A stretch of 64,000 nucleotides of DNA from a virus. The position numbers and the translations under genes are program-made. The stretch spans positions 62,001 to 126,000 of IMG/VR virus record IMGVR_UViG_3300029922_000007; one strand, given 5' to 3'. This document shows, one piece after another, positions 19,481 to 64,000 of this stretch (positions are counted from its first letter, which is position 1; the number at the start of each line of letters is the position of its first letter). The notes below the pieces were generated by a model. The model ran no database searches, was not told the origin of the DNA, and saw only the letters and a program-made list of their open reading frames with translations.

Positions 19481-19668
19481 AAACTGGATACTATATTCCC
19501 ATTTATAGTTGGGGACCAAACCCTTCTGAAGTAGCGGGATCTAGTACTGGCGCTACTTTATACTGGGAGCTTAAGGATCTTTGGGGCTTTGAACCAGATG
19601 CGGTGGGATATTTCGAAGTTTTTGGCAATATTCCTACTCAGGAAGAGTTCGAGGAAAGCCAAAAATGA
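19477..19668 (+). CDS. Hypothetical protein
   Basis: 63 residues, aromatic- and acid-rich (YYIPIYSWGPNPS, then YFEVFG). ATGA-coupled on both sides. No family recognised. Confidence 0.45.
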   Translation: MKTGYYIPIYSWGPNPSEVAGSSTGATLYWELKDLWGFEPDAVGYFEVFGNIPTQEEFEESQK

Positions 19669-43498: not shown

Positions 43499-46447
43499 TT
43501 ACAGAATATCCCATCCTGAGCCGTTGGAAGCTAAAGTAAACGATTCGTACTGAACATTTTCATATTGGGCGCTGAATCCATCGATTAAATCCGATCCAAA
43601 CGCGTTGATGTTTAGGTAATTTGACGTACTGTCAACCTTTTTTAGGTAGAAAATTCTTCCAGTTACGGTAGAAGCGGCTGGTAAATCAAAGTTAACTACT
43701 CCAGCAGTGCAATCCGCGCGTAAAATACAGTCGCCTGTAAGAACAGCGTAGGTAGTTGGACCGAACTTAGTGGAAACAGAAACGGGAGTCATGCTTCCGT
43801 TCAGTCCTGGAGCGCCAGGAGCACCAGCCGGACCAGCAGGACCGACAGCGTTAGCTCCATTGCCTCCTCCGCCACCAAGCCTAATTTCAACTTCGTCCCC
43901 AATAACTAAGCCGCCGCCAGGAAGAGTAAGAATCTGAATTTGATTAGAAGGAGTTCCAGGTGCGCCAACTTCAGCGTAAGCTCCGGACTCCAAATCCATG
44001 AACTGACCGTTCAAGAATAAGAGGAGCGACCCTGCTCCAACAGTATACTGTTGTGGGATATTTCCTTCTCTGCTATTGTTAGGAAGAGTAAGGAAACTTC
44101 CATTAGCAACGGGACCATTCAAACTGGTCGGTGGGGTTGCGCCTGATGCGACTATCTCGATAACTTCATCGTACGAAGGAGAATCCAAGAGGGCTTGGAT
44201 ATTCCCAATAGCTTTATCTAGCTCTTTGATAGCTAAGGTCAAACTATCGGAGTCATGTATAACGTAGTTACCAGTGCCAGTCCCGGATTGAGAAGTAGTG
44301 ATCGCAAATGGAGCGCCAACGTTTACATTGCTAGCACCATTCGAAGTTCCTGCAGATGTATTGGTTACTACAAGTGTGCCAACCCCAGAAGTAGCTGAAA
44401 AGTCTCCAAATGGAGCTGAATTCAGAGCAAGAGCCAACTTTGTTGCAACTTGAGTGGCTGTATCTCCAGTTAAGATGTCCACTTCAATAATAGCATTCGT
44501 ATTTGGAGCTACAGGAGCACTACCTACACCGCTAACTTTGAACCAAACAGCGTATTCGCGAGCGTCTGCAGAAGAGCTAATGAGGAAATACTGACCGCCA
44601 GTAATAGTTGATCCACCACCAGTGGTAAAATCGGAGATCTGAACGGTAGATCCTGGATTCATAGCCGCTACATATTGTGGCTTAGAAGATGACGCCGATG
44701 GAGAACCGATATATTGCAGAAGCTCAAGAGAGGTAGTTCCGGAAACAGATACACTCTCGCCATTATCAAGTTCTTGTGATAGGAAGCGAATGTAAACTTT
44801 AGGATTTCCCCCATTGTCTTCTCGCAGGAACAGCCAGAAAACATCGGCCCCTACTGGAACAGAGGCGCGGGACGAAATTTGAATAGCGCGGGTATCGCCA
44901 ACTGGAGATGGCGAAGCATGATAAGAGCCAAACGCATACTGGGCTTGAGATCCGCCAGCACCAGAATTGTCCCCAGCCGAAACATTGCTCGTAAGGGTAA
45001 CTTGAGATCCAGAATTGACTGTCAAGATCTGGTAATAACCGGAAGAAGTATTTGAAGCGACCTTAATAAAGTCACCGGGAAGTAGTCCAGAAGTCCAGGT
45101 TACAGCGCCAACAGAATTGACAGTTGGGGAACCTGAAACAAAAATCAGGTTTGGAGCGATAGGGACTTCTCTATTAAGGAGAATATAGGCTACTTCATCA
45201 TCCGTAAGTGTTATATCGGTAGAAGAAGGATTAGCAGCAATAGTATAGGTGAGGGAAGATCCGATGACACGAATTTCAATCGGTTGATCCCAATTGATCT
45301 GCCCTGGAGAAGTGATAGCGCTCGGACTATAGAAACTTACGCCAATTCCAGTACCGTTTAGGGTAGCTGGTTGGGACATGGTAATCGTAGACCCAGCGAT
45401 AGAAAGTATGGTAGCCCCTTGAGGAATACCAGTACCGAAGATGAAGTCCCCATTAACTAATCCAGCAGTAGAAGCTAGAGAGGTTAACTGATTGCTAGTG
45501 ACAGCTATATTTCCGGTGGTAACTAGGATAGGATCAGAATTAGGTAGAATCCCGTTAGAAATTTCACCACTGCCGGTAATAACAGTATTCCCGAGATCCT
45601 GGAAAAGACTTTGCAGGGAGGGAATTGGACCACCTCCACCGCCGCCTGCTCCTGAGAACCAATAGGGCGTGCCCTTGATTCCAAGAAGTTCGGACATGAT
45701 GGCGTTCATCCAAGATTTCAGGCTGTCTAGTTGTTTATCGCCGCCTATAAAGGGGTTAGCGGAGCTATTAGTAGCACTGATGGTTACTGGAGACTGGGTT
45801 TGCCCTTGGCTCCAAGGATAGGTGAAGTTAGGGTTAGGGCTAATTCCACCAGTTTCGAGGGAATAGAGCATCCAGCGGGGATCGGTGATAGTTAGGACGT
45901 TTCCGTTAGAATCTGTGGTTACGATAGCTGCTGGGAGGACGTTTTGAGCCCAAGGAGAGGTCGTGATGATGATTTTGTAGGTGAGGGTTTGGGCTTCAGG
46001 TGCTATCTCAGTTATTTCGTCGTTGGCGGTTGCGTTCCAGATGTACTTGGTTACGTCTGTGCTAGGATCAGCGAATCGATTGTAATCAATACCCACATAG
46101 TTCGTGCTGGAAGCTGTGAAGGATCCGGAAACATTAGGATTTGTGGCTGCATTTAGGACCTGGTTAGCGGTCCCAAGTGGTACCTGGAAAACGGTGCCGC
46201 TGGCCGACGCATCAATATTTAAAATAGAGCCTGGGTCTACGATCATCTGTAGGCCGTTTGCGGCGGAGCCAATAGCTCCGGACGTAACCAGTGAGAACCC
46301 GCGAATGATGTAACCCTGCGAAGTTCCAGTAATAATGGCGGTTACTGCAGCATCCCAATCAGAACGGGAAGCGCTTTCGATGCGCCTAAGGCTGCTCACA
46401 TCCAGGCGTTGCTCGCTCAAAATGTTAAGAGTGCTTAATACTGCCAT
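43499..46447 (-). CDS. Large tail-fibre/baseplate-attached protein
   Basis: 982 residues. Repeated beta domains rich in Ser, Gly and Asn, a short collagen-like stretch GPAGPAGAPGAPGLNG near residue 870, and a C-terminal domain ending FTLASNGSGWDIL. Its first codons overlap the GIY-YIG gene by 23 bp. The start follows AGGAAA. Probably the proximal part of the tail fibre. Confidence 0.6.
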   Translation of the reverse strand: MAVLSTLNILSEQRLDVSSLRRIESASRSDWDAAVTAIITGTSQGYIIRGFSLVTSGAIGSAANGLQMIVDPGSILNIDASASGTVFQVPLGTANQVLNAATNPNVSGSFTASSTNYVGIDYNRFADPSTDVTKYIWNATANDEITEIAPEAQTLTYKIIITTSPWAQNVLPAAIVTTDSNGNVLTITDPRWMLYSLETGGISPNPNFTYPWSQGQTQSPVTISATNSSANPFIGGDKQLDSLKSWMNAIMSELLGIKGTPYWFSGAGGGGGGPIPSLQSLFQDLGNTVITGSGEISNGILPNSDPILVTTGNIAVTSNQLTSLASTAGLVNGDFIFGTGIPQGATILSIAGSTITMSQPATLNGTGIGVSFYSPSAITSPGQINWDQPIEIRVIGSSLTYTIAANPSSTDITLTDDEVAYILLNREVPIAPNLIFVSGSPTVNSVGAVTWTSGLLPGDFIKVASNTSSGYYQILTVNSGSQVTLTSNVSAGDNSGAGGSQAQYAFGSYHASPSPVGDTRAIQISSRASVPVGADVFWLFLREDNGGNPKVYIRFLSQELDNGESVSVSGTTSLELLQYIGSPSASSSKPQYVAAMNPGSTVQISDFTTGGGSTITGGQYFLISSSADAREYAVWFKVSGVGSAPVAPNTNAIIEVDILTGDTATQVATKLALALNSAPFGDFSATSGVGTLVVTNTSAGTSNGASNVNVGAPFAITTSQSGTGTGNYVIHDSDSLTLAIKELDKAIGNIQALLDSPSYDEVIEIVASGATPPTSLNGPVANGSFLTLPNNSREGNIPQQYTVGAGSLLLFLNGQFMDLESGAYAEVGAPGTPSNQIQILTLPGGGLVIGDEVEIRLGGGGGNGANAVGPAGPAGAPGAPGLNGSMTPVSVSTKFGPTTYAVLTGDCILRADCTAGVVNFDLPAASTVTGRIFYLKKVDSTSNYLNINAFGSDLIDGFSAQYENVQYESFTLASNGSGWDIL

Positions 46448-47327
46448 AAATATTTGATTTCCTAGGCCTTTTCTTCAATTTATTGGATCTACGGCCTATA
46501 ACCTTAGTACCATTAAAGGTGGCGATAGCGTATAGGTATCGCTCTTCTAATAAGATTGTGGGTTGGTCCTCATCTGCAAAAACCCAAACATGCTGTCCAG
46601 CGGACTTACTCTCCTTGAATAGGCAAGCCCCTCTTATTGCTGTAGAATGAGCGTCGATAGTTTTTTGGGCTACGAAACAGGACGGAAATTCTATAATTGA
46701 GCCATCGACTAAAGACTTACCTATAATAGCCCTGGATTGGTCATTGTTTCCGCGTTTTTTGGCCATTAATCTTCTTCGTTCCATCTCCTCCACATTAAAT
46801 TCGGATTTATGCATCCAAACCCAGCCACCGCAAGAAATTGCCTGCTGAGTTCTCTTCCCACAAATAGAAACCGATAGTAGACAACATTTTCCGATATTTT
46901 TATAGTTAAACCCATCTAGGGCCGTATCTTTCCCACACGAGTATTCTTTAATCTCACCAGTCTCTATAGACATTCCTATAATTGGTTTCTTAGAGGATTC
47001 TCCTATTTTTCTTTTTGCCTCTTCCGTATGCTTTACTGGGGGAGCGTCATAGCCGCCCTTTTTAAGGTTATATAGGCGATGTTTTTCGTTTTCTAAGGTA
47101 AATATTTCTGCGGCTTCCATCTCCGCAATAGTTGAGAATTTCTGCCTTATGTGATACTTAAAAGCGCCTACTCCGAATTCGTTGTATGCTTCTTGCAACT
47201 TATAGTTGTAGTGTTCATTTCTTTCCAATGATTTTCTGTGGGCAGACCAACGTCGTTCGATCCTACCCTTGGTAATTCCGGCGTAGCCCATTCCGTTAAC
47301 AGTATTCGTAATCTCGTATAGAAACAT
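46425..47327 (-). CDS. GIY-YIG homing endonuclease
   Basis: The GIY-YIG domain is at the N-terminus: Y4-E-I, then GMGY15-A-G17 and R25/R26, with the catalytic glutamate E74 (EAAEIFTLENE). HTEEAKRKIG (about 100-109) is a NUMOD3-type DNA-contacting motif, followed by two NUMOD1-like segments. It sits between the tail-fibre gene and a divergent + strand gene. Its TATAGT -10 is six bases from the ATG, so the message is nearly leaderless. Confidence 0.8.
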   Translation of the reverse strand: MFLYEITNTVNGMGYAGITKGRIERRWSAHRKSLERNEHYNYKLQEAYNEFGVGAFKYHIRQKFSTIAEMEAAEIFTLENEKHRLYNLKKGGYDAPPVKHTEEAKRKIGESSKKPIIGMSIETGEIKEYSCGKDTALDGFNYKNIGKCCLLSVSICGKRTQQAISCGGWVWMHKSEFNVEEMERRRLMAKKRGNNDQSRAIIGKSLVDGSIIEFPSCFVAQKTIDAHSTAIRGACLFKESKSAGQHVWVFADEDQPTILLEERYLYAIATFNGTKVIGRRSNKLKKRPRKSNIYGSIKHS

Positions 47328-49485: not shown

Positions 49486-50736
49486 GTGGGAGTAAGTAGG
49501 ATATCTGATAAACAACATTACGAAAACTTAAAAGATTGTGTTGAAAAACGCGGTGGTAAGCTAGTATCTGAAAAATACTTAGGATCTAGAATAAAGCTAA
49601 CCATAGACTGCGGTAAGGGGCACGAATGGGACTCTATACCCCGAAATATAATCGTTCTGAAGTCTTGGTGTCCGTTTTGCGCTAAAACCAGAACTCCTGG
49701 GATTGAAGGTATGCAGGAATTGGCTCAAGGTCAGAATCTTGTGTGCTTAAATAAATTTAAAAAGGGGGAAGAAAACACTTTTCAGTGGAAATGTTTGTTG
49801 TGTGGCGACACCTTCATAAGAAGGTTGAGCCATATTAGAAGCAGACCCGGTTGTTCCAATTGTAAGGCTAGAAATTTAGGCGAAAGGGTTTGTAGGCTAT
49901 CTTTTGAGGCAATCTTTGAATCGAAATTCCCCAATACACACATGTCATGGCTTATAAACAATAACGGAAATACGCTAACCCTAGATGGGGTTAATACCGA
50001 TCTTAAGATAGCATTTGAGCATCAAGGAGAACAGCATTTTAAATTTAAAAAACACTTTCATAGAAAGGAAGGCGCTCTAGAAGATATTATACGGAGGGAT
50101 AATTTGAAGATTAAGCTTTGTGAGGAAAATGGATATAAATTAGCAATAGTGCCAGACCTAATCTGTGTAGGAAAAATATTTTCCTCTATAGAGTCAGGAC
50201 AATCCCTTATCCCCATTCCCGAACCGATTTTATTGGCCTGTAAGAACGCTGGAATAATACTACCAGACAGCGTAAGATCGATACTGTTGGACTTAAAGAA
50301 AATTACCGGAAAAGAAAGCGATCAAATACTGGAATCTCTCAAAATTCATGCAAAAAATGGTGGGTTTAGTATACCTGACTGTCTTATTTATAGCATGCAC
50401 GATACTCCAATAAAAGCTATTTGCTATAAGTGTGAGTACGAGTGGAACACAACACCTACAAGAATAAAAGTGGGAAAGGCGTGTCCTAGATGTGCTGGGA
50501 CGTTAAGGCTAGAAATAGGTTGGTTCAAACAAGAAGCGGAAAGGCGCGGCGATGTCCTTTTATCTACTCAGTACAACGGCCTATCGAGCTTTATCGAAGT
50601 AAAATGCGGCAAATGTAGCCATATTAGGAAAGTGCTAGCGCAAAGCTTTAGAAAGGGGCATGGTTGCAAAAAGTGTTCAGATAAAGAAGGCGCCAAGAAA
50701 AGATTAGCAAATCAGCTCAGGTCAAGAGGCCAATAA
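49486..50736 (+). CDS. Homing endonuclease, Vsr-like core flanked by treble-clef repeats
   Basis: 416 residues from GTG. TLTLDGVN (163-170) then IAFEHQGEQHF (175-185) is the Vsr/EDxHD core, but the expected first Glu is replaced by Thr165. Two zinc treble-clefs (CGKGHEW..CPFC and CLLCGDTF..CSNC) precede it, and two more (CYKCEYEW..CPRC, CGKC..CKKC) follow. It is related to the 31917 gene. It overlaps the tail-tube-like gene by 25 bp and has a hairpin-controlled start. Confidence 0.75.
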   Translation: MGVSRISDKQHYENLKDCVEKRGGKLVSEKYLGSRIKLTIDCGKGHEWDSIPRNIIVLKSWCPFCAKTRTPGIEGMQELAQGQNLVCLNKFKKGEENTFQWKCLLCGDTFIRRLSHIRSRPGCSNCKARNLGERVCRLSFEAIFESKFPNTHMSWLINNNGNTLTLDGVNTDLKIAFEHQGEQHFKFKKHFHRKEGALEDIIRRDNLKIKLCEENGYKLAIVPDLICVGKIFSSIESGQSLIPIPEPILLACKNAGIILPDSVRSILLDLKKITGKESDQILESLKIHAKNGGFSIPDCLIYSMHDTPIKAICYKCEYEWNTTPTRIKVGKACPRCAGTLRLEIGWFKQEAERRGDVLLSTQYNGLSSFIEVKCGKCSHIRKVLAQSFRKGHGCKKCSDKEGAKKRLANQLRSRGQ

Positions 50737-51143
50737 AGTACTTGGCCGATAAAAGAAAAGCTTACAGAGTAAACCCCCTTAGTCTGAACCGACTCAGAAA
50801 TATTCGATACTTGTGCCTTAGGAATTGACCAGATTGTCTCGCCGCTTTGGCGATCTTCGAGTCTAAGGCTGCAGTAATTTGTTGCGGCCAAATTCGAAAA
50901 TAAAGAGATCAAATTAGATCCCTGAAGTCCTCCGCTGTTGGTTATCCGCACTCCTTTACAGTTCCCCTTAACTACATTTTGTCCGCCAGTAGCTATTTCT
51001 TGCGGATAGGGAGAGTTGATCCCATAGATACTATAAGCGCCTTGATCCAACTCTATGGATACACTCTGAGTTATTGAAAAAATTTTATTGTTAACGTAGA
51101 GTCTACATCTAGCCCCAGTTATTACGAGCGATTGTTGCGCCAT
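50712..51143 (-). CDS. Tail-tube-like protein
   Basis: 143 residues, a beta-sandwich-type sequence (CRLYVNNKIFSITQSVSIEL, YGINSPYPQEIATGGQ, GVRITNSG, IWSIPKAQVSNISESV, VYSVSFSFIGQ) like phage tail-tube or related tail-terminator folds. AAGGAG precedes the ATG. It lies among baseplate genes. A tail-completion role is equally possible. Confidence 0.5.
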   Translation of the reverse strand: MAQQSLVITGARCRLYVNNKIFSITQSVSIELDQGAYSIYGINSPYPQEIATGGQNVVKGNCKGVRITNSGGLQGSNLISLFSNLAATNYCSLRLEDRQSGETIWSIPKAQVSNISESVQTKGVYSVSFSFIGQVLYWPLDLS

Positions 51144-51152: not shown

Positions 51153-53084
51153 TTATGGTCCGTAAACATAGTCAACTTCCGAGTAAACAGTTCCATATTT
51201 ACCCAATCCGATGTCGTTAGGATACAGGATCGTAAAATTTACCGTAACGCCAGCAGCCACAACCGAACCAATAATTGTTTGGCAGTAGGACCTAGCGTTC
51301 GCTGTGTCTGTGAGATATCCTTGATAGTAGGAGCCGTCGCTTGGCAAAACGATCGGCGCTTTAGAGGTAACCAAAAGAACCGAAGTTCCAACTGGATGAT
51401 CTTTTTGAATGAAATATGCTGGACTAACAAGAAGAGTCCCAGAACTTGGGGCAGCTATATAAGGAATGGGACCTTCCTGATTTTCTCCGCCATAGTCAAA
51501 AATAAAGTACCCGCTTGCGTCTGGGAATCCTACAGAAGACCCGACTGTAATGACGTGACTAGTCTCGCCGTTGACATCTTCTGTCAGGGTAGTGCTAGCG
51601 CCACCGATCGTAAAACCTTGGCTCGGATCAAAAATATAGGGTCCTAGCGTTATTGGCAAACTCGGTCCGGCATCTGCGATGGTAGTTGGATCGACCACAG
51701 TCATCGTAACGACGTTATCTACTACAGTATAGGTCAGAGTTGGAAGAACCGCACTAACAGCATCAAAAACCTTAGCGGCGACAGTGCCTGGCAAATCCTC
51801 GCTTCCAATATTGACTTCAATCCCAGTGTATCCATTTGGAGCAGGATCCGTATTTCCACCATCGACATTAAGCCAACCATAGTACTGGAACATCGACCCT
51901 AAATCGTCTATCAAATAGTAATCTGCTATACCGGTACTAGGATAGAAACTTCCTGCTTGCAGAACTAATTGTACCACGGGCTGTTCTGTAACCCCATGCA
52001 GGTGCATTGAACCGATCCTGCTTCTTTCGATTATCTTTGTTGTAGCGGGCAAAAATATCTGTAGGGTATTGGCCTGAACTTGATAAACTGCAGCATAGTA
52101 TTGCTTATTTAGGATAGTTTCTCTAACTGGTGTGTAGAATAAAACAGCAGTATCTGTTCCCTGCACTACAATTCCAGTACTTCCAAGTGGACTATAGATT
52201 TGAAAATACGCAATGTCTACAGCCCCACCTTGGGATGATATAATAGGATACGATCCTTCGTTACTAGAAGAAGCGAACCCTCCACCAAAAATATTCACGT
52301 ACTGCTGAGGTTCAACCACTCCAAGATTTGGGTCTGCTCCACCTGTCCAAGTAAATCTTAAATTCCCGCCTGGTTGTTGACTGATAGTCCACTGAGTTGA
52401 AAAATTGCCCCCAGCTGGGACTGTTGCACTAAATGAAAGTACGTTTTCTGCTCTACCACCTAAGACTGTAATGGAAGAAGAAGCTCCAATAGTGCTAGAT
52501 ACTAATTGAACATAGTTTCCATTGCCATCATTATTTACGATCGCACTACCAGAAACACCCAAACGGCTCAATCCAATAGAAATAGCGTTTGCGATTTCCT
52601 GCGCACTTGCTGCAGCGATACTAGTAAACTGACTTGCATGAAAAGTAACAGTACTGGTATTTGCGCCATCAAAGTTAACGATTAGGGTGTCGCCGTCTTG
52701 CAAATTATAGGGCTCTAAGTTTTGAGCGTTAGAGGTGGCTTTTACGAATTCATCGCCAAACACAATGTCCAGGATGTTATTGATTAGATCTCGTACTTGC
52801 TTTCTATTTTTAACTTGAATACCCAAAGCACTGAAGATGGTATCACTAAGCCCAATAGTAGGATCTCTGGTGATCCCATAGTTGGCCAAACGAAGGTCTA
52901 GAAAGGCTCCTTGGGCAGTACCGATATAGAGAGAATCGTTAACTGCAGCGGCTGAATTCACCAAATAAGTACTGCACGAGGATGCAATAGCATTAAGAAT
53001 TGCTGTAGTATTAGGCCCATTAATATATTGGCTAAGATACTGTCTTAACTTTTTATATTCTGTTGCTGTATCAGTGACTGCCAT
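51153..53084 (-). CDS. Baseplate-J-related structural protein
   Basis: 643 residues. AAVNDSLYIGTAQGAFLDLRLANYGITRD (about 45-73) resembles the N-terminal signature of baseplate J-like proteins (A-x-G-x-x-L-D-x-x-A-x-x-x-G-I-x-R), also present in the next gene. The rest is beta-rich and Ser/Gly-rich. It likely forms a baseplate wedge or spike ring. Confidence 0.6.
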   Translation of the reverse strand: MAVTDTATEYKKLRQYLSQYINGPNTTAILNAIASSCSTYLVNSAAAVNDSLYIGTAQGAFLDLRLANYGITRDPTIGLSDTIFSALGIQVKNRKQVRDLINNILDIVFGDEFVKATSNAQNLEPYNLQDGDTLIVNFDGANTSTVTFHASQFTSIAAASAQEIANAISIGLSRLGVSGSAIVNNDGNGNYVQLVSSTIGASSSITVLGGRAENVLSFSATVPAGGNFSTQWTISQQPGGNLRFTWTGGADPNLGVVEPQQYVNIFGGGFASSSNEGSYPIISSQGGAVDIAYFQIYSPLGSTGIVVQGTDTAVLFYTPVRETILNKQYYAAVYQVQANTLQIFLPATTKIIERSRIGSMHLHGVTEQPVVQLVLQAGSFYPSTGIADYYLIDDLGSMFQYYGWLNVDGGNTDPAPNGYTGIEVNIGSEDLPGTVAAKVFDAVSAVLPTLTYTVVDNVVTMTVVDPTTIADAGPSLPITLGPYIFDPSQGFTIGGASTTLTEDVNGETSHVITVGSSVGFPDASGYFIFDYGGENQEGPIPYIAAPSSGTLLVSPAYFIQKDHPVGTSVLLVTSKAPIVLPSDGSYYQGYLTDTANARSYCQTIIGSVVAAGVTVNFTILYPNDIGLGKYGTVYSEVDYVYGP

Positions 53085-53093: not shown

Positions 53094-56000
53094 TTATGTT
53101 AGTAACGATACACTTATATCACTAAGTTGAACGACGAATGCTTTTTGGCCAGTAGCTAATACAATTTCGTCATTGTTTACATTATATGCTGGACTCACCA
53201 TCACAACGCTGGTCACACCAGGGATCAGCCTTACAGTTTCCACGATAGAACTCAAGTCAATACTAACTCCCAAGGGATTCGATTCAATCAAGGAGTACAC
53301 TGAAGCTTGGATCTGCTGAGTAATCTGGCTGAACGAAACACCAATATTAGTTCTTATGGCCAAAGAAACTTTAACTCTGAAATCGAGAGGTTCTCTGATA
53401 AAAATATTAGTACCAGCCGCCGAGACTCCTGGGTAGCTGATTGGATCACGTGGATCGCCATAGATTACTCGATTTGATTCACCGATCAAACCCGTATCGT
53501 AGTTATACGAATCTATTCCAAGTCTAATCGTTGTTGGAAAGTTTAATTTTCCAAGTGCAGTCATAGTAACACCAGCGCTCAGATCGATTTTTTCATATTG
53601 GGCAGATGTATTGAAAACGATATCGTTAAAGCTGGTAGTTCCTGGCTCAGATGCAACATATGCAACCTGTTTATAGCCGGTGTACTTGATACCTTCTTGC
53701 ACAGAGAGAGATGAAAAATTACCAGCAACATTCGTATCGTATTGAGTAGAAATTACACCAGATACAACGACAGATGTTGGACTCAAAACCTGCAAGATAT
53801 TATAGGTTCCAGAATTGCCTGCTCCAAGAACGGTTCCATTAACGACAAACTTATCTCCGGGAACGGCAGCTTCGTATGGATAGAATTGAATCTGAGGACG
53901 ATCTACGGAGAAAGTTACAGATGAGATTCCAGACTGTACCACAGCGGAAGGATTAACGACCGTCAAGAATGGGGTTTGTCCGGTTTGAGTTACCACAAAG
54001 CTGAATGCGGCAGGCATCGAAACATCAACAGGAACATGGGTCGCGGCTGCAACAGTAGCAGTTACAGTAACGACATTCCCACTTACAGAATGGGTCATCA
54101 AGGCCAAAGCTGAAAGGGCAGTATTGGTCTTAGTGGCAACCGTAGCTGCCGTATCTGGAGTAACACCACCAACGACGGTCACTTCGATACCAGTAAAACC
54201 AGCAGGAGCCGGATCAGTATTTGAGCCACCAGATACATTATACCAAACGTAGTACTTATTAGCGTTTCCACCGTTCCAAATTTCGAAGTAGTCTCCAGGA
54301 CCAGTCGATGGGAAGGTTATAGCTGGGGGCATTGTAAATTGAACAATTTGTTGCTGTGAAGGTCCAGATTGTTTTACAGTGAAGCTTCCTTGATTTGGGG
54401 TAGAGAAACCGGTTCCAAAAGTAACCACATCGCCTGGTTGGGCAACCCCTAAGAATGGAGCAGTTCCAGTTCCAGTCCAACTGAGAGTTTCGATCCCTCC
54501 AGAAACAGAAACATTAAATACAGTAGTAGCATCGTATCCAGTAGAAATAGTACCTGCAGTGCAGGTTACTTCTTCTTCTACAGAGTTAGCATTTTCATAC
54601 CAAACACTATCGTTGTTTTCACGAATGACTCGATATTCACCTTGATTGAGGGGGCTGAAGGGGGAAGCTAAAATCATCGTGTCGCCTTCAGAAACAGATG
54701 ATGTAGCGGTGAAGTCTCCAGCTAGTACAATAGTCCCATTTTCAACTACTACGGATGGATTAGAAACGGTAAAGGACAATCCATCTGGAGATACTCCAGT
54801 TACAAAGAATGTCCCGTTATTGCCAGCGTTCGCCATCCTCGTAATGGTAATCAAGTCTCCAATAGAGAGACCGGCAAAGTTGGCATTGCCAGCAGGTCCA
54901 GGAGGGGCTGACTGTGTGTTAATGGTTGCTGTATCGCTTAAGGTAACCGCTGCAGTCAAGGCGATTAGGGACCCATTTACGATGCCGCCAAGAGTGTTGA
55001 TGATGCTTGCCTGAGCTACAATATTACCTTCAAAGGTTCCAGCACTTCCACTATTAATGGTAGCAGATGAACCCACAATCCAGAAGATGTCTGCTGCAGT
55101 AGCCCCACCAGTCAAAACCATAGTTGGAACCCCACCAGCTCCAGTTGTGAGGGTAGACGCCGCATAAATGATGTATTGTCCTGCACCATTAAAAGTCAGG
55201 GTTGCAGGACCCGATGTGGCCAAGTTAAACGTCCCGCTAGATTCCTTATAATTCCCAGGAGTCAAAACTACTCCATCGAGATCTGCAGAAATAGCAGTTC
55301 CGGCCAACCCAAGAGTTTGCATGCTAGTATATGCTGCTAGAGCATCATTTTGGGCGGTATTTGCTGCTGAGTTAGCCAAGTTAGTAGAGCCAGTAACGGT
55401 AAAAGTGCCGGTAACAGTAGATCCAGGATATTCACCCAAATTCCCATTAACTACGCTGGTTCCAACACTATTAGTGATGGCAGAAGATGCCAAGATCCCA
55501 TAGGTAGCTGCTGACGCTAAAGGGCTTGGAGGTGGGGTTGGAGTTGGAACAGAGGTGTACGTACCATCAGAAGATACGTTTACGGTCCAATTCCCAGTAT
55601 CGTTAAAATTCACTGAAGAGCTAAAGTCGGGAGAAGTTCCAACCCCATTCCAGCTAAGGCAGGTCAACAATCCTTGTTTTTCTACCCTGAAAGTATCTCC
55701 TACAACCCTAATACCGCTTCTAGGAGCGCCAAAGTAGAGTTGCGCAGTTTCTTGGTTCAGGAGTATGATCGTAGATTGTCCATCTATCGGCGTATTTTGT
55801 AGAACGGTAACACTCGTGTTATTGCTGATCCCCGTATCTTTCGTTTGATAGTTTGCCGCTTGGAGTCTGAACCATTGATCGCTAGCTACTGCTTGACTGG
55901 CGATGCTGTTAGCGGAGATGGACATCTCATTGTTACCAAGTAGCTCCCCAGAAGTCAATACTGGAACGACATATTCGTTACCACTTCCGCCTACGATTTG

Positions 56001-59000
56001 GATAGCTCCGACAGATCCCAATGTTTCCGTTGCGAGTTGGAGTTTGGTTCCACGATCGACCACTTCTACAGTTCCAACGGTAGTAAACCCAGTTACAGCC
56101 AAGATAGACCAAAGCCTTTGGACTTGATCCATAGTAGTTGGAATAAGTCTGACTTCATCTCCACTTGTAAAGAAGCTATAACCTGTATCGCTAGGGTAGG
56201 TAAGTGGTTCTTTAAGGGTAAATTGTGGATTTCCAGTAACGTTGGAGCTTGCAATCCAGTTAATCCCATCTTTTAGGAAGTAGAATGGATGTGTAAATCC
56301 GCTATCTTCGAAAGTACTCAAAGCGATAATGCCAGATCCAGTAGTTCCGCCGTCATTTACGATCGTGGAAGTAAAGTACTGTTTTAGATTTGCATTGATA
56401 TAGGTATTTATTTGTGCTGCCGTAGTTGGGGTTGCAATATAAAAAGTAATCCCGTTTAGAATGGTAGTAACTACTCCAGTTTGATTTACGGCGGTACCGG
56501 TTGGGACTTGAACACTAAAGGATGTAGAAGTTGGAGTAAATCCTACTGCAGAAGATACCTTGAATGTTCCAGTGTTTGCGATGTTAAATCCGGTCGATGA
56601 CAAGATCGTAACGTACTCTCCACCAGACAAGAACAGGGCTGGGTTGCCAGGACCGGAAAGGGTAAAGGCCGAGAAAGCAATCGTAGAATCGCCAGTTCCG
56701 GAAGTCTTGGTTAAGATTCCAGACGCAAGAGGCGGCCCACCAGCGCTCATTGCCGTTATCGTCGTACCAACAAGCGTAACCTTAGTCGCGGTGACAGTGA
56801 ACGTTTGGCCATTACTCGTATAGGTCGCGCCAATAGTTGCAGCGGCTGCCGTTGGGACAGTGAAAGTATACACTCCGTCCCAATTATAGGTTACTTGATC
56901 TGTCCCAGCAGTAGGGGTATTAGGGGTTACCGTTACGTTCCAAAGAGTGCTTGGCGCAATAGAAGATGCAATTGGTGCTCCGGACTGTAGGCCGATCGAA
57001 ACACTTACTTCATTGTTAGAAGTGACAGTAACCGTAGAATTAATGGGTTGATTGGCAGAAGTAGGGTAGACATAGGAAACATTTACCGCTTCACCGCTTC
57101 GGCCCCAAAGGGTGGACCTGATCAAAAGCGCTGTTTGAGCATTTGATCCCTGAAGTACAAATTTTGGTTGCAATAGGACCTTGAAGTTTGAGAAATCAAA
57201 GCCAGCAAAGTTTGTGGCAAAGGAAGCAGTAGGGCCAGCATCCACATCGTATGCGTTGAAACTATAATCGTTAGCGGGCCAAGTGCTGTTAACTATGGCT
57301 CTCCTGTAAAGAGGCATAGTATAGGTTTCGCCAGCAGTATTGTTGTCTACGATGGTAACTACCGTATCGTTATATCCAAAGTCGAGTGGGTTGGCCACAT
57401 AGTACCTATCAGCGATTCTAAGACGTCTAACGTTTGGATACTCTGGGAGGATGGTAATTGCGGTTCCAGAAGTTGCCCACATTTGAACATTTTCTTCAGA
57501 AGGCTGTTCGTCATCAATAAGGCCAGTTCCAGCAGTAGTAAGGGTGGTTCCAGCTATGATGGTGGTACCTACCGTGAAGAAAATTCCGTTGTTAGAATAC
57601 ACAGCCCCGGAAGTTGCGTTTGCAGAGGTAGTCGTAAAGACAAATTGTCCTGGAGCAGGCGATGTAAACGCAGAGAAAGTAATCGTTGAATCTCCGGTTC
57701 CAGAAACTTTGGTAAGAACTGGGGATCCAGAAGAAGGCTGTGAGTTGACTACTGCTGCAGCGCTTAAAGTTACAGCGGCAGTCAAGGCAATTAAAGATCC
57801 GTTAACTGTTCCGCCGAGGGTATTGGTGATGGAGGCCTGCGCTATGATGTTACCTTGGAAGGTTCCAATATTCCCGCTATTGATGGTAGCTGAGCTGCCT
57901 ACAATCCAGAAGATGTTCTTTGCTAAAGCCCCACCAGAGAGGACCATGGTTGGAACGCCACCAGCACCGGTAGTAAGGGTAGAAGCGGTGATAATGATGT
58001 ACTGTCCTGCCCCATTAAATGTAAGAGTTGCAGGACCAGAGGTAGCTAAAGTCGCTGCACCGGAAGAGAAGCTATATACGCCTGGAGTCAGGGTTTGACC
58101 GTCCAAGGCGGAAGGAATGACAGTCCCTGGAGCTTCTGCTGCCATGGTAGTATAAGCGGCCAAGGCGTCGTTTTGGGCGGTATGGGCCGCGCCATTAGCT
58201 AAGTTTGTAGCTCCAGTAACCGTAAAAGAACCGGTAACGGTAGAGCCAGGATATTCACCCAAGCTGCCGTTAACAGTGCTAGTCCCGACGCTATTGGTGA
58301 TAGCGGAAGCCGCCAAGATACCATAATCGGCGGCTGAAGCTAGTGGGCTCGTAGAAGGACCGCCAGTAAGAGAGGGCGAGCTACCATATGGGTTCAGGAA
58401 ATTGATAATTTCATTTGGACCGAATTGACTCAAAGATCTGGTGGACGTGAAGTTGGTTAGATATGTATCGATAGGTTCAGCATAGGAATCAGCACTGATC
58501 GTAGAATGAAAGAAAAGTGGTAATTCGGCAGTAGTAGCCTGGGTTTCATAGAACGCTACAAGGGCGTCCTGACTAGAGCTATTAGCCTGAGTGGTAAATC
58601 CAAGAGCTTGTCCTTCGGCATCAGCCGTAACAATGGTAAGCTCGCCTTCAGTATTGAGGGTGTTGGTAGTAACTACGATATTCGTATTGTCGAATACAGT
58701 GAAGGTGGCTTCGTCCGTTTGAGCTTGGAGTTCAGCGGCAATAACATCCAATGTACTGGTCCCAGACGTTACTTCGAACTTCTGAGGAACGTTGTTGGTT
58801 CTAACAACTACTAAACCCTGAACATAGAGGGCGTTCGTTACTGGAGTTACCAGGGCAGCTTCAGCGGCTGTGACCTTAATAGTCAGAACGGATCCGGTTG
58901 CGGAATGAACTCTTCCTTCAAGTTGGTCAGTATCGGGAATTTCGGCAGACCAAATGATGACGTAGTCTCCGGGAAGAACATTCGAAAATGAATTAGCTCC

Positions 59001-61334
59001 AGAAGAAGTGTAGCTAACCAAATCTCCTGAGACAGAAACGGAAAGATTAGATCCGGATTGGATGGTTGGAATGATTACTTCTGGAGAATCGATTAGGATC
59101 CAAACATGGGCGTTAGAGGTGAGCGTTACTGATCCAGAAGGAATGGTGATGCCTTTAATGTTGGCTTGAGTTACGAGAGTGCCTGCGGAAAGCTTATCTC
59201 CTTTAACCAAGGGCTTGACCAACTGAATCTGAGCGGTATTTCTGTCCAAAATATAGTCTGAAGCTACCCCAGTGGAGGTGAGGTCGGTGACGCTGATCAT
59301 TCCCTTAGCAATCAAAGAGCTTGGATTAGCTACGGTATTTACGACCGTAACTTGAGCGCGATTTACCGCGCCAAGATTACTGGTGAATTCGATGGTGGAC
59401 CCAACAGGGGTAGCAGTAACACCGGTAAGAAGTTTATTGAAGACGTTGACCCAAGATTGAATGCTGTTTGAGGAAGAGACGGTTTGATAAGTACCTTCAG
59501 CGACAAATTCAGCATCGGTGACAGTATAGGTCGTTGGTTGGGTTCCATCTACTGAAAGACTGAGAGTTTCGCCATTAGCAATAGTAGCGGACCAAAGACT
59601 CTGTGACTCAGTAAAGATAGAAGCAGTAGATCCATCTTCAGTGAGAAGGATTCCGTTTTTGTAGAGTCTGAGAGTTTTGGCGACGTTGGACGGGAATTGG
59701 AGTGCGAGGTTTGCATCGGTTACCAGGGAAGAGCTTGGGGGTTTAACTTGGATAGTATTGATAGTTTGGGAAATAGGACGAATGACGACAAAAGTTCCGT
59801 CGCCAGAAGTAACCGCTTCATAGGCAAGTAGGGTGTCGGCATTAATGCTAGCGGTAACTTCGTAGGCCGTAGCAGATCCTGGATTCTGAAAGTCGGTGGA
59901 AGCGAAAGTGTGCTGATAAGTAACATTCCCAACGATAACTTCCAGGACTTCGCCACCAGAAAGGGCGAATGGGGATGGAGCAACAGTTTCAAGGAGAGCC
60001 TTAGTTACTGAAGTTTGGGTTCCACCAGTTACGAGTTGAAAATATTGTTCGCCGCCAAGAGCAGAATCTACGATGGACTCGATTCCAACACCTAACCACG
60101 TAGCTTCGTAGCCGGAGCCATCATCAACATAAACAATGGTATTGCCCGAAGAATTCAGGATATCCGTGCTAACGATGGTAGCCGAAGAATTAGGGTCTTG
60201 GACCCCGAGCAATGCGCTCTCGATTGCAGTTACGGTCCCTAAGCCAGTAGAAGAAAGTTGAAGCTTGATTCTAATCCTGTACGCATCATCTGTCTCTGTG
60301 TCGGCCCCGGTGGTAAAAGAAACGGGGTTAGTAACTGTAGCATTTGGGAAAGGAGCGCCTGCAAATTCATCAACGGCACCAGCAGGAGCGTTCCCTAGAG
60401 CGCCTGGAAGCATGGCCGTCACAGCCACATTAGTCACGGTCGTTTCGCCATCGAGAATGATGGCCTGCTGAGTTACTGAGAATTGAATGTCTGGAGTGGA
60501 CCCAACACCTGGATCGACTACGACAGTATTGACTGGGATAGTCCTAACGCCACCTTGAGCAAGAATAACGGATTCGTTCAGGTTGTGATACTTAGTGGTT
60601 GGGCTAACCAGGGTAATGGCCCAATAGGAGCCAACTCGAACTGGAGGGGTACTGAAGGTAAAGACGATCCCACCAGCAGTTGCGGTGGCCGGATTGCTGA
60701 TTGTAATTTGGCTACTAGAATCTACTGATTGGATGATGGATCCAGCTACAATGCCGATACCTGAAATAGGGAAGCCAGCGAGTAGGCCAAGAGTCGAAGA
60801 TAGGCCGGAAATGACGTTTGAGAGATTTGCAGTGCTACCAGTGGCAGAAAGGGTTCCGGTGCCATAGGTTAGAGGGCCTTCGATGTCGGAGGTGCCACGG
60901 CCAATATAGAGGCCTCCGGTGGCTGGGAAGAGGGAAGCGTCGGAAACATAGATGGTGGTAGAGCCAATGAGGGGTGGATTCAAGCCAGAATAGATCTTGG
61001 CAGAAATCTTCTGAAATGAAGTATCAATTACCGTTACAAATCCAGTAGTTACCTTGGCGGTAAGGCGTGGAATGCCGTATTCTACGCCAAGACGATCTAA
61101 ACTACTGCCCGTAGCCCTATCCAGGGAGAAATCTCGGAGGATAGAGAAGATGTCCCCGCTTGACCTAGCGGCTATCAAACTGACAATTTCAAAAAATTTT
61201 ACATTGGCAGCCGAAACGCTTTGATCGGAAATCCCCAACGATCCCGCATAGCTAGAGAGTGCATTGCCAAGAATCTGTTGGTAGCTCTGGGGCTGTGGGA
61301 GAGATCCATTTTGAGAAGTAGGGGTAGTGGCCAT
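53094..61334 (-). CDS. Giant baseplate-J-like protein with two ice-binding-like domains
   Basis: 2,746 residues. The N-terminal portion has the baseplate J features: SFDL-type start, DRATGSSLDRLGVEYGIPR (about 72-90), then GADTETDDAYRIRIKLQLSS (about 341-360) typical of gpJ/gp6 wedge proteins. From about 620 onward the protein is a long chain of beta domains. Two DUF3494 ice-binding-like domains lie at 996-1199 and 1937-2141. TKxSGTGDST-type and FTVTxT modules recur. The C-terminus (2,560-2,746) again looks like gpJ (VKVSLAIRTNIGV, SLIESNPLGVSIDLSSIVETVRLIPGV). So the fold is J-like with a huge insertion. No Shine-Dalgarno is visible before the ATG, perhaps because of the endonuclease inserted upstream. 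Confidence 0.75.
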   Translation of the reverse strand: MATTPTSQNGSLPQPQSYQQILGNALSSYAGSLGISDQSVSAANVKFFEIVSLIAARSSGDIFSILRDFSLDRATGSSLDRLGVEYGIPRLTAKVTTGFVTVIDTSFQKISAKIYSGLNPPLIGSTTIYVSDASLFPATGGLYIGRGTSDIEGPLTYGTGTLSATGSTANLSNVISGLSSTLGLLAGFPISGIGIVAGSIIQSVDSSSQITISNPATATAGGIVFTFSTPPVRVGSYWAITLVSPTTKYHNLNESVILAQGGVRTIPVNTVVVDPGVGSTPDIQFSVTQQAIILDGETTVTNVAVTAMLPGALGNAPAGAVDEFAGAPFPNATVTNPVSFTTGADTETDDAYRIRIKLQLSSTGLGTVTAIESALLGVQDPNSSATIVSTDILNSSGNTIVYVDDGSGYEATWLGVGIESIVDSALGGEQYFQLVTGGTQTSVTKALLETVAPSPFALSGGEVLEVIVGNVTYQHTFASTDFQNPGSATAYEVTASINADTLLAYEAVTSGDGTFVVIRPISQTINTIQVKPPSSSLVTDANLALQFPSNVAKTLRLYKNGILLTEDGSTASIFTESQSLWSATIANGETLSLSVDGTQPTTYTVTDAEFVAEGTYQTVSSSNSIQSWVNVFNKLLTGVTATPVGSTIEFTSNLGAVNRAQVTVVNTVANPSSLIAKGMISVTDLTSTGVASDYILDRNTAQIQLVKPLVKGDKLSAGTLVTQANIKGITIPSGSVTLTSNAHVWILIDSPEVIIPTIQSGSNLSVSVSGDLVSYTSSGANSFSNVLPGDYVIIWSAEIPDTDQLEGRVHSATGSVLTIKVTAAEAALVTPVTNALYVQGLVVVRTNNVPQKFEVTSGTSTLDVIAAELQAQTDEATFTVFDNTNIVVTTNTLNTEGELTIVTADAEGQALGFTTQANSSSQDALVAFYETQATTAELPLFFHSTISADSYAEPIDTYLTNFTSTRSLSQFGPNEIINFLNPYGSSPSLTGGPSTSPLASAADYGILAASAITNSVGTSTVNGSLGEYPGSTVTGSFTVTGATNLANGAAHTAQNDALAAYTTMAAEAPGTVIPSALDGQTLTPGVYSFSSGAATLATSGPATLTFNGAGQYIIITASTLTTGAGGVPTMVLSGGALAKNIFWIVGSSATINSGNIGTFQGNIIAQASITNTLGGTVNGSLIALTAAVTLSAAAVVNSQPSSGSPVLTKVSGTGDSTITFSAFTSPAPGQFVFTTTSANATSGAVYSNNGIFFTVGTTIIAGTTLTTAGTGLIDDEQPSEENVQMWATSGTAITILPEYPNVRRLRIADRYYVANPLDFGYNDTVVTIVDNNTAGETYTMPLYRRAIVNSTWPANDYSFNAYDVDAGPTASFATNFAGFDFSNFKVLLQPKFVLQGSNAQTALLIRSTLWGRSGEAVNVSYVYPTSANQPINSTVTVTSNNEVSVSIGLQSGAPIASSIAPSTLWNVTVTPNTPTAGTDQVTYNWDGVYTFTVPTAAAATIGATYTSNGQTFTVTATKVTLVGTTITAMSAGGPPLASGILTKTSGTGDSTIAFSAFTLSGPGNPALFLSGGEYVTILSSTGFNIANTGTFKVSSAVGFTPTSTSFSVQVPTGTAVNQTGVVTTILNGITFYIATPTTAAQINTYINANLKQYFTSTIVNDGGTTGSGIIALSTFEDSGFTHPFYFLKDGINWIASSNVTGNPQFTLKEPLTYPSDTGYSFFTSGDEVRLIPTTMDQVQRLWSILAVTGFTTVGTVEVVDRGTKLQLATETLGSVGAIQIVGGSGNEYVVPVLTSGELLGNNEMSISANSIASQAVASDQWFRLQAANYQTKDTGISNNTSVTVLQNTPIDGQSTIILLNQETAQLYFGAPRSGIRVVGDTFRVEKQGLLTCLSWNGVGTSPDFSSSVNFNDTGNWTVNVSSDGTYTSVPTPTPPPSPLASAATYGILASSAITNSVGTSVVNGNLGEYPGSTVTGTFTVTGSTNLANSAANTAQNDALAAYTSMQTLGLAGTAISADLDGVVLTPGNYKESSGTFNLATSGPATLTFNGAGQYIIYAASTLTTGAGGVPTMVLTGGATAADIFWIVGSSATINSGSAGTFEGNIVAQASIINTLGGIVNGSLIALTAAVTLSDTATINTQSAPPGPAGNANFAGLSIGDLITITRMANAGNNGTFFVTGVSPDGLSFTVSNPSVVVENGTIVLAGDFTATSSVSEGDTMILASPFSPLNQGEYRVIRENNDSVWYENANSVEEEVTCTAGTISTGYDATTVFNVSVSGGIETLSWTGTGTAPFLGVAQPGDVVTFGTGFSTPNQGSFTVKQSGPSQQQIVQFTMPPAITFPSTGPGDYFEIWNGGNANKYYVWYNVSGGSNTDPAPAGFTGIEVTVVGGVTPDTAATVATKTNTALSALALMTHSVSGNVVTVTATVAAATHVPVDVSMPAAFSFVVTQTGQTPFLTVVNPSAVVQSGISSVTFSVDRPQIQFYPYEAAVPGDKFVVNGTVLGAGNSGTYNILQVLSPTSVVVSGVISTQYDTNVAGNFSSLSVQEGIKYTGYKQVAYVASEPGTTSFNDIVFNTSAQYEKIDLSAGVTMTALGKLNFPTTIRLGIDSYNYDTGLIGESNRVIYGDPRDPISYPGVSAAGTNIFIREPLDFRVKVSLAIRTNIGVSFSQITQQIQASVYSLIESNPLGVSIDLSSIVETVRLIPGVTSVVMVSPAYNVNNDEIVLATGQKAFVVQLSDISVSLLT
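54912..55526 (-). other. DUF3494 ice-binding-like domain, copy 2
   Basis: Residues 1937-2141 of the giant baseplate protein. It matches the DUF3494 pattern as copy 1 does: LASAATYGILASSAITNSVG, NGNLGEYPGSTVTG, a helix AAYTSMQTLGLAG, LTPGNYKESSG, TLTFNGAGQYIIYAAS, IFWIVGSSATINSG, and VNGSLIALTAAVTLS. It is similar to copy 1 and most divergent in the helix between residues 60 and 90. Confidence 0.7.
57738..58349 (-). other. DUF3494 ice-binding-like domain, copy 1
   Basis: Residues 996-1199 of the same protein. The family has a right-handed beta-solenoid with a helix along it; it binds ice in many cold-adapted microbes. The matching parts are LASAADYGILAASAITN, NGSLGEYPGSTVTGSF, LTPGVYSFSSGA, TLTFNGAGQYIII, FWIVGSSATINSGN, GTFQGNIIAQASI and GTVNGSLIALTAAVTL. 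Ice binding itself cannot be read from sequence; some DUF3494 domains serve only in adhesion. Confidence 0.75.
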
Positions 61335-61350: not shown

Positions 61351-62334
61351 TTAAAGGATCCCCATCTCCTTAAGTTTTTTCTTATCCCAAAGCTCAGAGT
61401 TTGGAAATTGGGTAAGAAACCAATCCCATTTAATTTGGGACTTCGGTCTCATATATCCCTTAATTTCTACCCACTTATTTTCATTAATTAGAAAAAGATC
61501 TGGTAGGTAGGTGGAAGTTTTGCCGGTTATAGCTGATGCCGGTAGGGTGAAGGTTTGAGGCTGCCATAGGAAATCTATTTTCCTCTCATTCAGATAATCA
61601 ACGACCTTAGGCTCGTAAGAGGCCTGACAAACAAGTTCTTCCCCTGTTTTCCAATGAAATTTTATGACGCTGTTGCTTTGTGTTCTAGCAGCTTTTAGGG
61701 AAACATCTTTATTTTGCATTGGATTGGGAAACCCGTACTTTTCCAAATTAGTTTTCATAAATTTTTGTCTAGTTCTAGCGGGATGTCCGTGTCCTTTAAA
61801 GGCGCTAGTGACTAAGCATTCGAAGGCCCCATGCTCTTTATCTATGAAAGATGCTTTGTCGTTGATTACGGTATAGGTATCCTCTACTATAGTAATGGTG
61901 TCTCCATGAACATCCGATATTCTTTTCCTTACTTCTGTAATGGGAATTCTGTACGTAAGCGGATGATTAGTGCCGTTAACTACTACGTTTTTAACTGAAG
62001 CGTCCCATGGACCGTGAGTTTTATTTATAAACGTTGCATCACTTCTTGAATTTTTGTAGGTCTCTTCGACTATTGTAACGTCCTCCCCATGCATTTTAAA
62101 AAGTCTACGTTTTACCTCTTCTATTTTTTGTGTTTTCTTTTCAGTGCTATCTTTGGGGTGGCCGTGACCGTCTAGGATATTCTTAACCCATGGATTCCAG
62201 GGTCCGTGTTTCTTATGTATGAAAGTTGCTTTAGCTAATATTTCCGTATAGGTGCTTTCCACTATGGAGATTGTGTCTCCATGTGCCCTGAATATCCTAT
62301 TTTTAATCTCTTCGATGGGGATCCTTTTACTCAT
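61351..62334 (-). CDS. PD-(D/E)XK homing endonuclease with three DUF723-like repeats
   Basis: 327 residues. Three repeats of about 60 residues share HGD-x-(I/V)-x-I-V-E-x-T-Y, then (A/S)-x-F-I-x-K-x-H-G, a pattern like DUF723 in phage nucleases. A Lys-rich segment (KTNLEKYGFPNPMQN) is followed by the nuclease YLPD279LFL, then WVE290IK292GY, a PD-(D/E)XK site. It lies between two baseplate genes with a TGATATAAGG box before it. It likely moved in recently as a free-standing homing gene. Confidence 0.7.
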   Translation of the reverse strand: MSKRIPIEEIKNRIFRAHGDTISIVESTYTEILAKATFIHKKHGPWNPWVKNILDGHGHPKDSTEKKTQKIEEVKRRLFKMHGEDVTIVEETYKNSRSDATFINKTHGPWDASVKNVVVNGTNHPLTYRIPITEVRKRISDVHGDTITIVEDTYTVINDKASFIDKEHGAFECLVTSAFKGHGHPARTRQKFMKTNLEKYGFPNPMQNKDVSLKAARTQSNSVIKFHWKTGEELVCQASYEPKVVDYLNERKIDFLWQPQTFTLPASAITGKTSTYLPDLFLINENKWVEIKGYMRPKSQIKWDWFLTQFPNSELWDKKKLKEMGIL

Positions 62335-62349
62335 ACGATCCTTATATCA
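62335..62349 (-). promoter_or_regulatory. Initiation box TGATATAAGGATCGT
   Basis: On the - strand it runs into ATG 62334 and overlaps the stop of the baseplate gene. It differs by one base from the box at 39801. It can be read as a TATAAG -10 or as the AAGGA ribosome-binding site. Confidence 0.35.
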
Positions 62350-64000
62350 TTGATTCGCTAGCTGATTACCTAGTTGGAATCCGATTGGAAAAACTCCGGC
62401 GACCCCCGCAATACCCACTGCAAGATTAATGCTAAGTGATGGACCTTGCTGGTTAATTTGTAGGCCCGTAATCCCACTAAATCTTGGATCAGAAGTAATA
62501 GCGTTCGTAATCGAATTATAGATATCTTGTGCTTTGAAGTCGGCGATACTGGATCCCGGCTTTACCGCAGCACCAAATGTTGGATTGGCGTAACTGGTCC
62601 CAGCAACACTGGACATGGTGGTCGTCAAAGCCTGCACGAGATTTGGGATCCCTGCTGCAAGTCTAAAATCTCCAGTATTGGTAACGGCAAGGTCCGCACC
62701 ACTTCCATTACTGTTGGGCTGTAAAAGCCAATCGACCTTCGAAAGTGCGACTAAATCCACATTTGCCACGGAAGTTGGAATTGATATTTGGTCGTAGGCT
62801 GGAGTTTGCAAATCTGAAGGGATAAAGATCACATTCGAACTATTGACGGTGCCAGGCAGGTACGCTTTCAGGTAGGCTCCGTCCGCGATTTTATAGATTT
62901 CCAGGTTCGCATCTCCATCTAAAGTCAACAAGAAGCTCGTCTGTGAAAGCGTAACGATATCCAGGATAGTTCTAGTGGTTGGGCTCTGAACCGAAGAATT
63001 GATGGAAACTAGCTGGCCTACAACTAAATTGGTACTGTCTCCGATGACTATATTCCTACCGTCGGCGTTGGATAGCAAATTATAAACAAAGCCCGTCTGA
63101 TCGATGTAGGGTTCGACTAAGTTATTTAGTGTTGCAATCTCAAGCCATCTCTGCGCATCTCCCAAATATCTGAGAGCGATCCCTTCCATATCCAAACCAA
63201 ACGGGACTGGCTGTTGAACCTTAGAATTCGGAATAGAGAATGGGATACCTGAAGCTTGAGCTAAACTCTGTACGTACTCCATGTTATTTAGGGTATCCTG
63301 ACTATCCAATTGTTGGGTTGCCGTCAGAATATCGTACGATTGCAGAAGCTCATAGAAAGTTTGCAGGATACTATATTGGTCTAAGGTGATAACCTGATTG
63401 CTAGTGTTTGGTGTAAATGGAGTATTATAGATTTTGCTATAGTACTGGTTTCCAGCCCCGAAAGAACTCTCAAGCTGCGTGACCATTGTTAGGATCGTTC
63501 CGCGCATTGCCTTGAGTTGTGCTACAGAAAATGAGTTTACCGTATCTACTTCGTTTTCTAGAGCCGCTTGTTGCTTTGAATTGAGTTTTAGGCTATTCAC
63601 TGGAACCTGGCTGAAAAGCATTGGATTTAGTTGTGGTTTAACGAAGATATTATAGGCTGGATCGACTACGGAGGCTGGAGAGATAGGAGAAGAGGTTACC
63701 CGCATTCTACCGCCTATATGAGGTTTCACGGGACCTGGCTGAGATCCTGCGAAGTTTTGTGGTGATAGCCCTTCGTTATCTCCAACAGAGGCCTTCAGAG
63801 CTTTAATTGCCCCGAGTACCCCTCCATTAGTGGCTCCAGCGCCCGTCAGGTTATTTAGGGTAAGCGTACTCATGAACTGAGTGATAGTGCTTGAAGCGTC
63901 GTTAATAAGCTGTGAGGGTAAGTCGGAAGCAGCAATGGCAACTCCGGCAAGATCTTTAACGAATAGTCCAGTTTGACGGATTATATTCAGGATATTGTCA
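62347..64000 (-). CDS. Baseplate protein with W/gp25-like C-terminus (5' end outside the window)
   Basis: The frame continues without a stop past ATG 63873 to the window edge (42 more codons ending in TQF), and no ribosome-binding site precedes that ATG, so the true start is beyond 64000. In the visible part, LGDAQRWLEIATLNNL (about 233-248 counted from ATG 63873) is a LysM-like segment as in gp53-type wedge proteins. The end resembles gp25/W: FRLAAGIPNLVQAL, then FGAAVKPGSS, SDPRFSGITGL. It fits a baseplate wedge component of a contractile tail. Confidence 0.65.
   Translation of the reverse strand, partial: DNILNIIRQTGLFVKDLAGVAIAASDLPSQLINDASSTITQFMSTLTLNNLTGAGATNGGVLGAIKALKASVGDNEGLSPQNFAGSQPGPVKPHIGGRMRVTSSPISPASVVDPAYNIFVKPQLNPMLFSQVPVNSLKLNSKQQAALENEVDTVNSFSVAQLKAMRGTILTMVTQLESSFGAGNQYYSKIYNTPFTPNTSNQVITLDQYSILQTFYELLQSYDILTATQQLDSQDTLNNMEYVQSLAQASGIPFSIPNSKVQQPVPFGLDMEGIALRYLGDAQRWLEIATLNNLVEPYIDQTGFVYNLLSNADGRNIVIGDSTNLVVGQLVSINSSVQSPTTRTILDIVTLSQTSFLLTLDGDANLEIYKIADGAYLKAYLPGTVNSSNVIFIPSDLQTPAYDQISIPTSVANVDLVALSKVDWLLQPNSNGSGADLAVTNTGDFRLAAGIPNLVQALTTTMSSVAGTSYANPTFGAAVKPGSSIADFKAQDIYNSITNAITSDPRFSGITGLQINQQGPSLSINLAVGIAGVAGVFPIGFQLGNQLANQ

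Follow-up and report, generated by a model that had tools for sequence, protein, structure and literature searches.

The window, a 64,000-nucleotide stretch of a 166,169-base IMG/VR virus record (G000), contains a tail gene cluster in which the gene for a baseplate J-like protein (gpJ) carries two domains of the DUF3494 (PF11999) family, known elsewhere from ice-binding proteins of bacteria and algae. The features that concern us are given below in window coordinates, except where G000 is named.

43499..46447, minus strand: fibre-like tail protein, 982 aa, with an empty DUF3494 site; orthologues L008 and L011 carry the insert
50712..51143, minus strand: small tail-cluster protein, syntenic with WNM70276.1 of Myxococcus phage Mx1
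51153..53084, minus strand: tail gene beside gpJ with a YYVWYNV module; homologue of the Mx1 kelch-repeat protein, matching its N-terminal part
53094..61334, minus strand: gpJ, baseplate J-like protein gene with two DUF3494 domains, 2746 aa; PHROG match, Mx1 homologue WNM70274.1
54912..55526, minus strand: DUF3494 domain 2 (D2), gpJ residues 1937-2141; second PF11999 stretch, phmmer match to 7bwx, gap in the Mx1 alignment
57525..58373, minus strand: whole module with D1 and the SGTGDST linker, gpJ residues 988-1270; missing in the L013 orthologue
57738..58349, minus strand: DUF3494 domain 1 (D1), gpJ residues 996-1199; PF11999, AlphaFold pLDDT 90, Foldseek matches to ice-binding proteins
62347..63873, minus strand: baseplate assembly protein, phrog_975, 34% identical to that of Mx1; the frame extends past the window end
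G000 19060-21993, outside the window: 977-aa tail sheath with PF11999, identified by Mx1 homology
G000 149914-151239, outside the window: 441-aa protein (p441) with PF11999, identified by profile match

The gpJ frame is intact, running from an ATG to a stop codon. A sequence-only reading had taken it for a phage baseplate protein, and this held: the ORF matches phrog_6, 'baseplate wedge subunit', at E=1.7e-21, and among 50,697 phage records the only one bearing a homologue was that of Mx1 (OR576727.2), where the protein is annotated 'baseplate protein J-like protein'. Homology to Mx1 gpJ at both ends, position within the tail cluster and syntenic neighbours place it in the baseplate J/wedge group. 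Mx1 gpJ aligned to residues 10-932, 1287-1918 and 2482-2745 of the window protein, so that both DUF3494 domains fall in alignment gaps. The two phages have a homologous virion module and similar genome sizes (47% identity for the major capsid protein, 47% for the portal and 31% for the terminase, with sheath, gpJ and baseplate assembly protein also matched), but Mx1 gives no PF11999 match and has different material in the region of the sheath insert. Pieces of the gpJ region are present at 100% identity in two other metagenome contigs, and a separate contig of 162 kb, L010, repeats the architecture with an identity of about 66-69%. Because the matching arrangement occurs in separate contigs, an assembly chimera was ruled out and the architecture is not an assembly artefact. 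Near the N-terminus, about 65 gpJ residues (about 158-222) are missing in the orthologues from L010 and L013.

Searched against Pfam-A, gpJ matched PF11999 Ice_binding and no other family; the match falls into two stretches and has E=1.3e-51 and a score of 175.7 bits, against a curated cut-off of 28.7; the best stretch covers residues 1006-1195 and profile positions 1-207 of 208. Two DUF3494 domains with precisely the boundaries listed for D1 and D2 had been proposed from the letters of the sequence, and both the assignment and the coordinates proved correct. Against PDB sequences, phmmer returned EfcIBP (6eio, 2e-18), AnpIBP (7bwx), 6bg8, 3wp9 and other ice-binding proteins. An AlphaFold model of D1, built on an alignment of 13 relatives, had a mean pLDDT of 90.3 and showed the family strands and a long helix (63-80), that is, the anticipated β-solenoid with a long helix along one face. 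All 31 chains that Foldseek retrieved with this model at E<=1e-3 were DUF3494 proteins, the top match being 6eio (E=5.3e-13). In both D1 and D2 the profile is matched in order, and the canonical chain order of b1, helix and b2 to b6 is kept. The phage domains thus share with EfcIBP (6EIO), AnpIBP (7BWX), SfIBP_1 (6BG8) and ColAFP (3WP9) the family, the solenoid with its bracing helix and a flat B-face of small residues. Those proteins, however, are free and cellular, whereas the phage copies are embedded in tail proteins, permuted in the sheath, and form a branch of their own with no more than 46% identity to any cellular sequence found.

Across G000, PF11999 has five matches in three proteins. 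The Mx1 counterpart of the 977-aa protein is annotated 'tail sheath protein', and its closer homologues (L012, 65-68% identical; L015, 61%) match phrog_279, 'tail sheath', at 1.4e-21 and 1.1e-24, respectively, with homologues overall at 1e-21 to 1e-26. Searched alone in PHROGs, the 977-aa protein gave no significant match, and its membership among tail sheaths follows from homology to annotated sheath proteins. The best phrog_279 stretches flank the insert, that of L012 ending at profile position 127 and that of L015 beginning at 135. A comparison with Mx1 and L039, both without DUF3494, suggests a fixed loop of a sheath subdomain as the place of insertion; a tail sheath evidently tolerates a 200-residue insertion.

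The DUF3494 blocks of the sheath are swapped. Profile positions 49-207, from the helix onward, match residues 243-396, and positions 1-48 match residues at about 399-444, so that all parts are present with the helix and b2-b6 first and b1 last. As read from these profile matches, the sheath domain is circularly permuted, and the same order was found in six sheath genes (our own and those of L012, L015, G002, G003 and G006). Permuted copies also occur in p441-like and other ORFs and, in part, in a fibre-like ORF (L171, L174, L157). The model of the full L012 sheath was poor (pLDDT 41); residues 181-380 score best, at 51-87 in blocks, and only its well-scored part, 184-380, was used. It runs from a helix (186-201) through coils up to residue 335 to the b1 strands (348-370), and this permuted segment matches DUF3494 structures. 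In solved structures the coils stack as b1-b6-b5-b4-b3-b2 (PMC7966756), which means that the C-terminal coil b6 adjoins the N-terminal coil b1. Joining b6 to b1 would make the solenoid continuous, and a cut before the helix would create new termini from residues that were formerly chain neighbours. As circular permutants that occur in nature, the sheath copies should be useful for studying how a discontinuous solenoid folds.

Presence and absence of the domain vary among close relatives. At the site of the ~283-residue window block (988-1270), the L013 gpJ orthologue, 67% identical over long stretches, reads ...HPYGVVPGTILDDEQP...; conversely, the L008 and L011 orthologues of the fibre-like protein (68%) carry a DUF3494 domain and the window copy is without one. 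Empty sites are thus seen in L013 gpJ, in the window's fibre-like ORF when set against L008 and L011, and in the gpJ and sheath of Mx1. The large relative contigs G002 and G003 have 4-5 PF11999 matches each. In a wider scan of IMG/VR we found 80 DUF3494 loci, whose carriers include gpJ homologues, fibre homologues and sheaths.

In a maximum-likelihood tree, 22 tail domains of these phages cluster away from cellular ones, with an SH-aLRT of 54 for the strict group and 95 when one further viral domain is included. Our D2 pairs with the D2 of L010 (94) and our D1 joins that pair (88). L010 D1, which occupies the same gpJ position as our D1, falls outside and represents a different lineage, which indicates that copies have been replaced or moved between sites. 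At the DNA level D1 and D2 are 71% identical, and a duplication event would therefore not be recent. The sequence-only proposal that the two arose by duplication is right to the extent that they are closely related; with another lineage at the D1 site of L010, an in-place duplication accounts for no more than part of their history.

Sheaths have gained the domain more than once. L173 is a phrog_279 sheath with DUF3494 in canonical order, and a second sheath family, phrog_2839, carries canonical DUF3494 domains that start near residues 65-240. Members of the latter were recognized by PHROG (L182, L192, L201) or by homology (L185, L188, L189, L197, L203, L205, L213), and their domains lie on other branches of the tree (96-98), with L201 separate, which marks them as separate acquisitions. 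L201 matches both families, showing that phrog_279 and phrog_2839 are distantly alike and should not be called unrelated. Taken together, the occurrence of DUF3494 at the same and at other tail sites, the empty sites and the second sheath family argue that it is probably a mobile virion-decoration module and not a baseplate speciality.

A recent capture from a host is not supported, the best identity to a cellular sequence being only 38-46%. An initial scan of cellular sequences with one sequence found no relatives. In a first tree the nearest cellular rows were from Acidobacteriota (SH-aLRT 84), a grouping that the larger tree does not keep. A tblastn search of the 50,697 phage records with the domain and two other viral DUF3494 domains gave no match.

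We then consider the flat B-face, which binds ice in solved relatives, with positions taken from the published AnpIBP map (PMC7277481). Columns 1, 2 and 4 of D1 hold A, G, S or T at 18 of 18 positions; column 4 is T in 5 of 6 rungs, with the register of the b2 rung uncertain, and column 2 reads A,A,S,S,T,T. D2 has small residues at 16 of 18, with I and N at B-face positions. Among the 22 phage domains, mean entropy at the B-face is 0.53 bits, against 1.21 for other small or polar positions (permutation p=1.5e-4), which implies that the face is maintained, and it is likely to be an active surface. The share of small residues on this face is almost equal in cellular homologues (0.93 against 0.95), so a composition of this kind cannot by itself establish ice binding. 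Threonine is abundant in column 4 whatever the habitat, and alanine is favoured in column 2 where the habitat is pure ice (PMC12337378), whereas column 2 of D1 is mixed. PF11999 also occurs in many ice-free habitats, including caves, lake sediment and hydrothermal vents, and the family has been credited with binding substrates as well as ice (PMC12337378). Antifreeze activity has been demonstrated for solved relatives (PMC7277481, PMC7966756). Ice is compatible with these observations as a ligand, and strong ice binding is not implied.

We propose that DUF3494 would have been inserted as an independently folding β-solenoid with its two ends side by side, into two sites of gpJ, the sheath, the fibre-like protein in relatives and the 441-aa protein. 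In the sheath the first coil, normally out of order, would follow coil 6 and give a continuous solenoid. The flat B-face, lined by Thr, Ser and Ala, might then grip a repetitive surface where hosts live. Sheath subunits are present in many copies per virion, and very many DUF3494 domains would be displayed through that protein, presumably facing outward and serving adhesion. An analogy is offered by the Ig-like domains that decorate structural proteins of phages, such as T4 Hoc: they too are mobile, adhesion-type domains that are distributed over several virion proteins and present or absent between close relatives. They differ in fold and family, DUF3494 being a solenoid and not an Ig fold, and DUF3494 lies also inside the tail sheath. 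DUF3494 would most likely work as a multivalent, low-specificity adhesin. The best explanation of our data, to which we assign a probability of about 60%, is a mobile virion-surface decoration module that acts as an adhesin; scatter over sheath, baseplate and fibre, gain and loss, and a conserved flat face fit multivalent decoration better than a receptor-binding tip. The sequence-only reading had inferred an adhesin hanging from the baseplate. The adhesin remains sensible, but the restriction to the baseplate does not, as the sheath, the fibre-like protein and the 441-aa family carry the domain as well.

For a decoration module of this kind, we rank ice or the freezing-water interface ahead of other repetitive environmental surfaces, and these ahead of a host polymer. 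Ice, or a quasi-liquid layer where soil water freezes, leads because ice has been shown experimentally for the family, and we put it forward tentatively. It is more doubtful that the tails of contractile phages in freezing soils became ice-binding surfaces on several occasions, with sheaths studded with solenoids and one lineage permuted. If they did, virions would hold on to ice at places to which meltwater carries hosts, and would be the first virions known to bind ice.

An alternative that we consider unlikely, although it survives best, is that DUF3494 is a receptor-binding domain which recognizes a host-surface polymer and aids adsorption through baseplate or fibre, with no role for ice. 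The domain does sit in baseplate and fibre-like proteins, and in a p441 homologue the C-terminal domain is CHB_HEX_C_1, of a type that usually accompanies carbohydrate-active domains. Specificity determinants, however, are usually found at fibre tips and diversify, whereas the B-face is near-uniform and conserved, and the domain occurs at two gpJ sites as well as in the tail sheath. The description of the family as substrate-binding as well as ice-binding (PMC12337378) also speaks for a receptor role.

Less likely still is that the domains inhibit ice growth or recrystallisation and keep virions intact through freeze-thaw; solved relatives have the required antifreeze activity (PMC7277481, PMC7966756) and many copies per virion would raise its local concentration, but there would be no need to build a protective protein into so many structural genes. 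Least probable is a neutral filler, one of several shuffled domains that lengthen the tail and have no ligand, for although the small SGTGDST and YYVWYNV modules are also shuffled among the same proteins, conservation is higher on the outward B-face than at other polar or small positions and another sheath family acquired the domain separately.

In the open-access literature searched, we found no paper that links DUF3494 with a phage or baseplate, in agreement with the initial statement that no such baseplate was known. PF11999 in Arctic marine viral contigs has been read as host cryoprotection 'auxiliary metabolic genes' (PMC11515562); here, in contrast, the domains are parts of virion proteins. 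The same paper mentions Synechococcus phage S-SKS1, which we rejected as a precedent, since its PF11999 match was not reproduced with the Pfam model. The Marinomonas ice adhesin MpAFP uses an ice-binding domain for adhesion (PMC3492233, PMC4083281); it shares the concept only, as its ice-binding domain is of another kind and belongs to a giant adhesin of a cell. As a decoration module, DUF3494 would count among the building blocks of virions and no longer as a freeze-tolerance gene of hosts, and would provide a testable idea about virus persistence in freezing or particulate habitats. Where PF11999 matches occur in viral contigs, the carrier protein should be checked before they are called auxiliary metabolic genes.

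Other modules recur in these tail proteins. One of ~65 residues, YTFTVTxANATxGATYSNN...TLTKTSGTGDSTIxFSAF, is found in several of them: gpJ (about 1207-1270 and 1490-1560), the L020 sheath (114-181) and the L008 fibre-like protein. In the last of these, DUF3494 sits within the module; beside our D1 the module halves are swapped. A ~100-residue YYVWYNV module (YYVWYNVSGGSNTDPAPAGFTGIEVTI) is common to three proteins of this phage, at residues 2311-2409 of gpJ (window 54108-54404), 363-480 of the 51153-53084 product and 110-205 of the 441-aa protein. In L057, a homologue of the 441-aa protein has a CHB_HEX_C_1/Fn3-associated domain at residues 471-540, after DUF3494; our own 441-aa protein lacks it, which is another sign of module exchange. 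Endonuclease-like ORFs lie within the tail cluster at window positions 46425-47327, which matches homing endonuclease PHROGs, 49486-50736 and 61351-62334; L013 has an equivalent ORF at the position of the last, and L010 does not. Elsewhere in G000, a GroEL-like phage chaperonin (58212-60056, minus strand) is 38% identical to that of Mx1, and a ribonucleotide-reductase-like ORF (L021:2391-5573; G000 142391-145573, minus strand) carries, to judge by its sequence, an apparent intein with an endonuclease part, which ends ...GSVRSHN/TVSQL.
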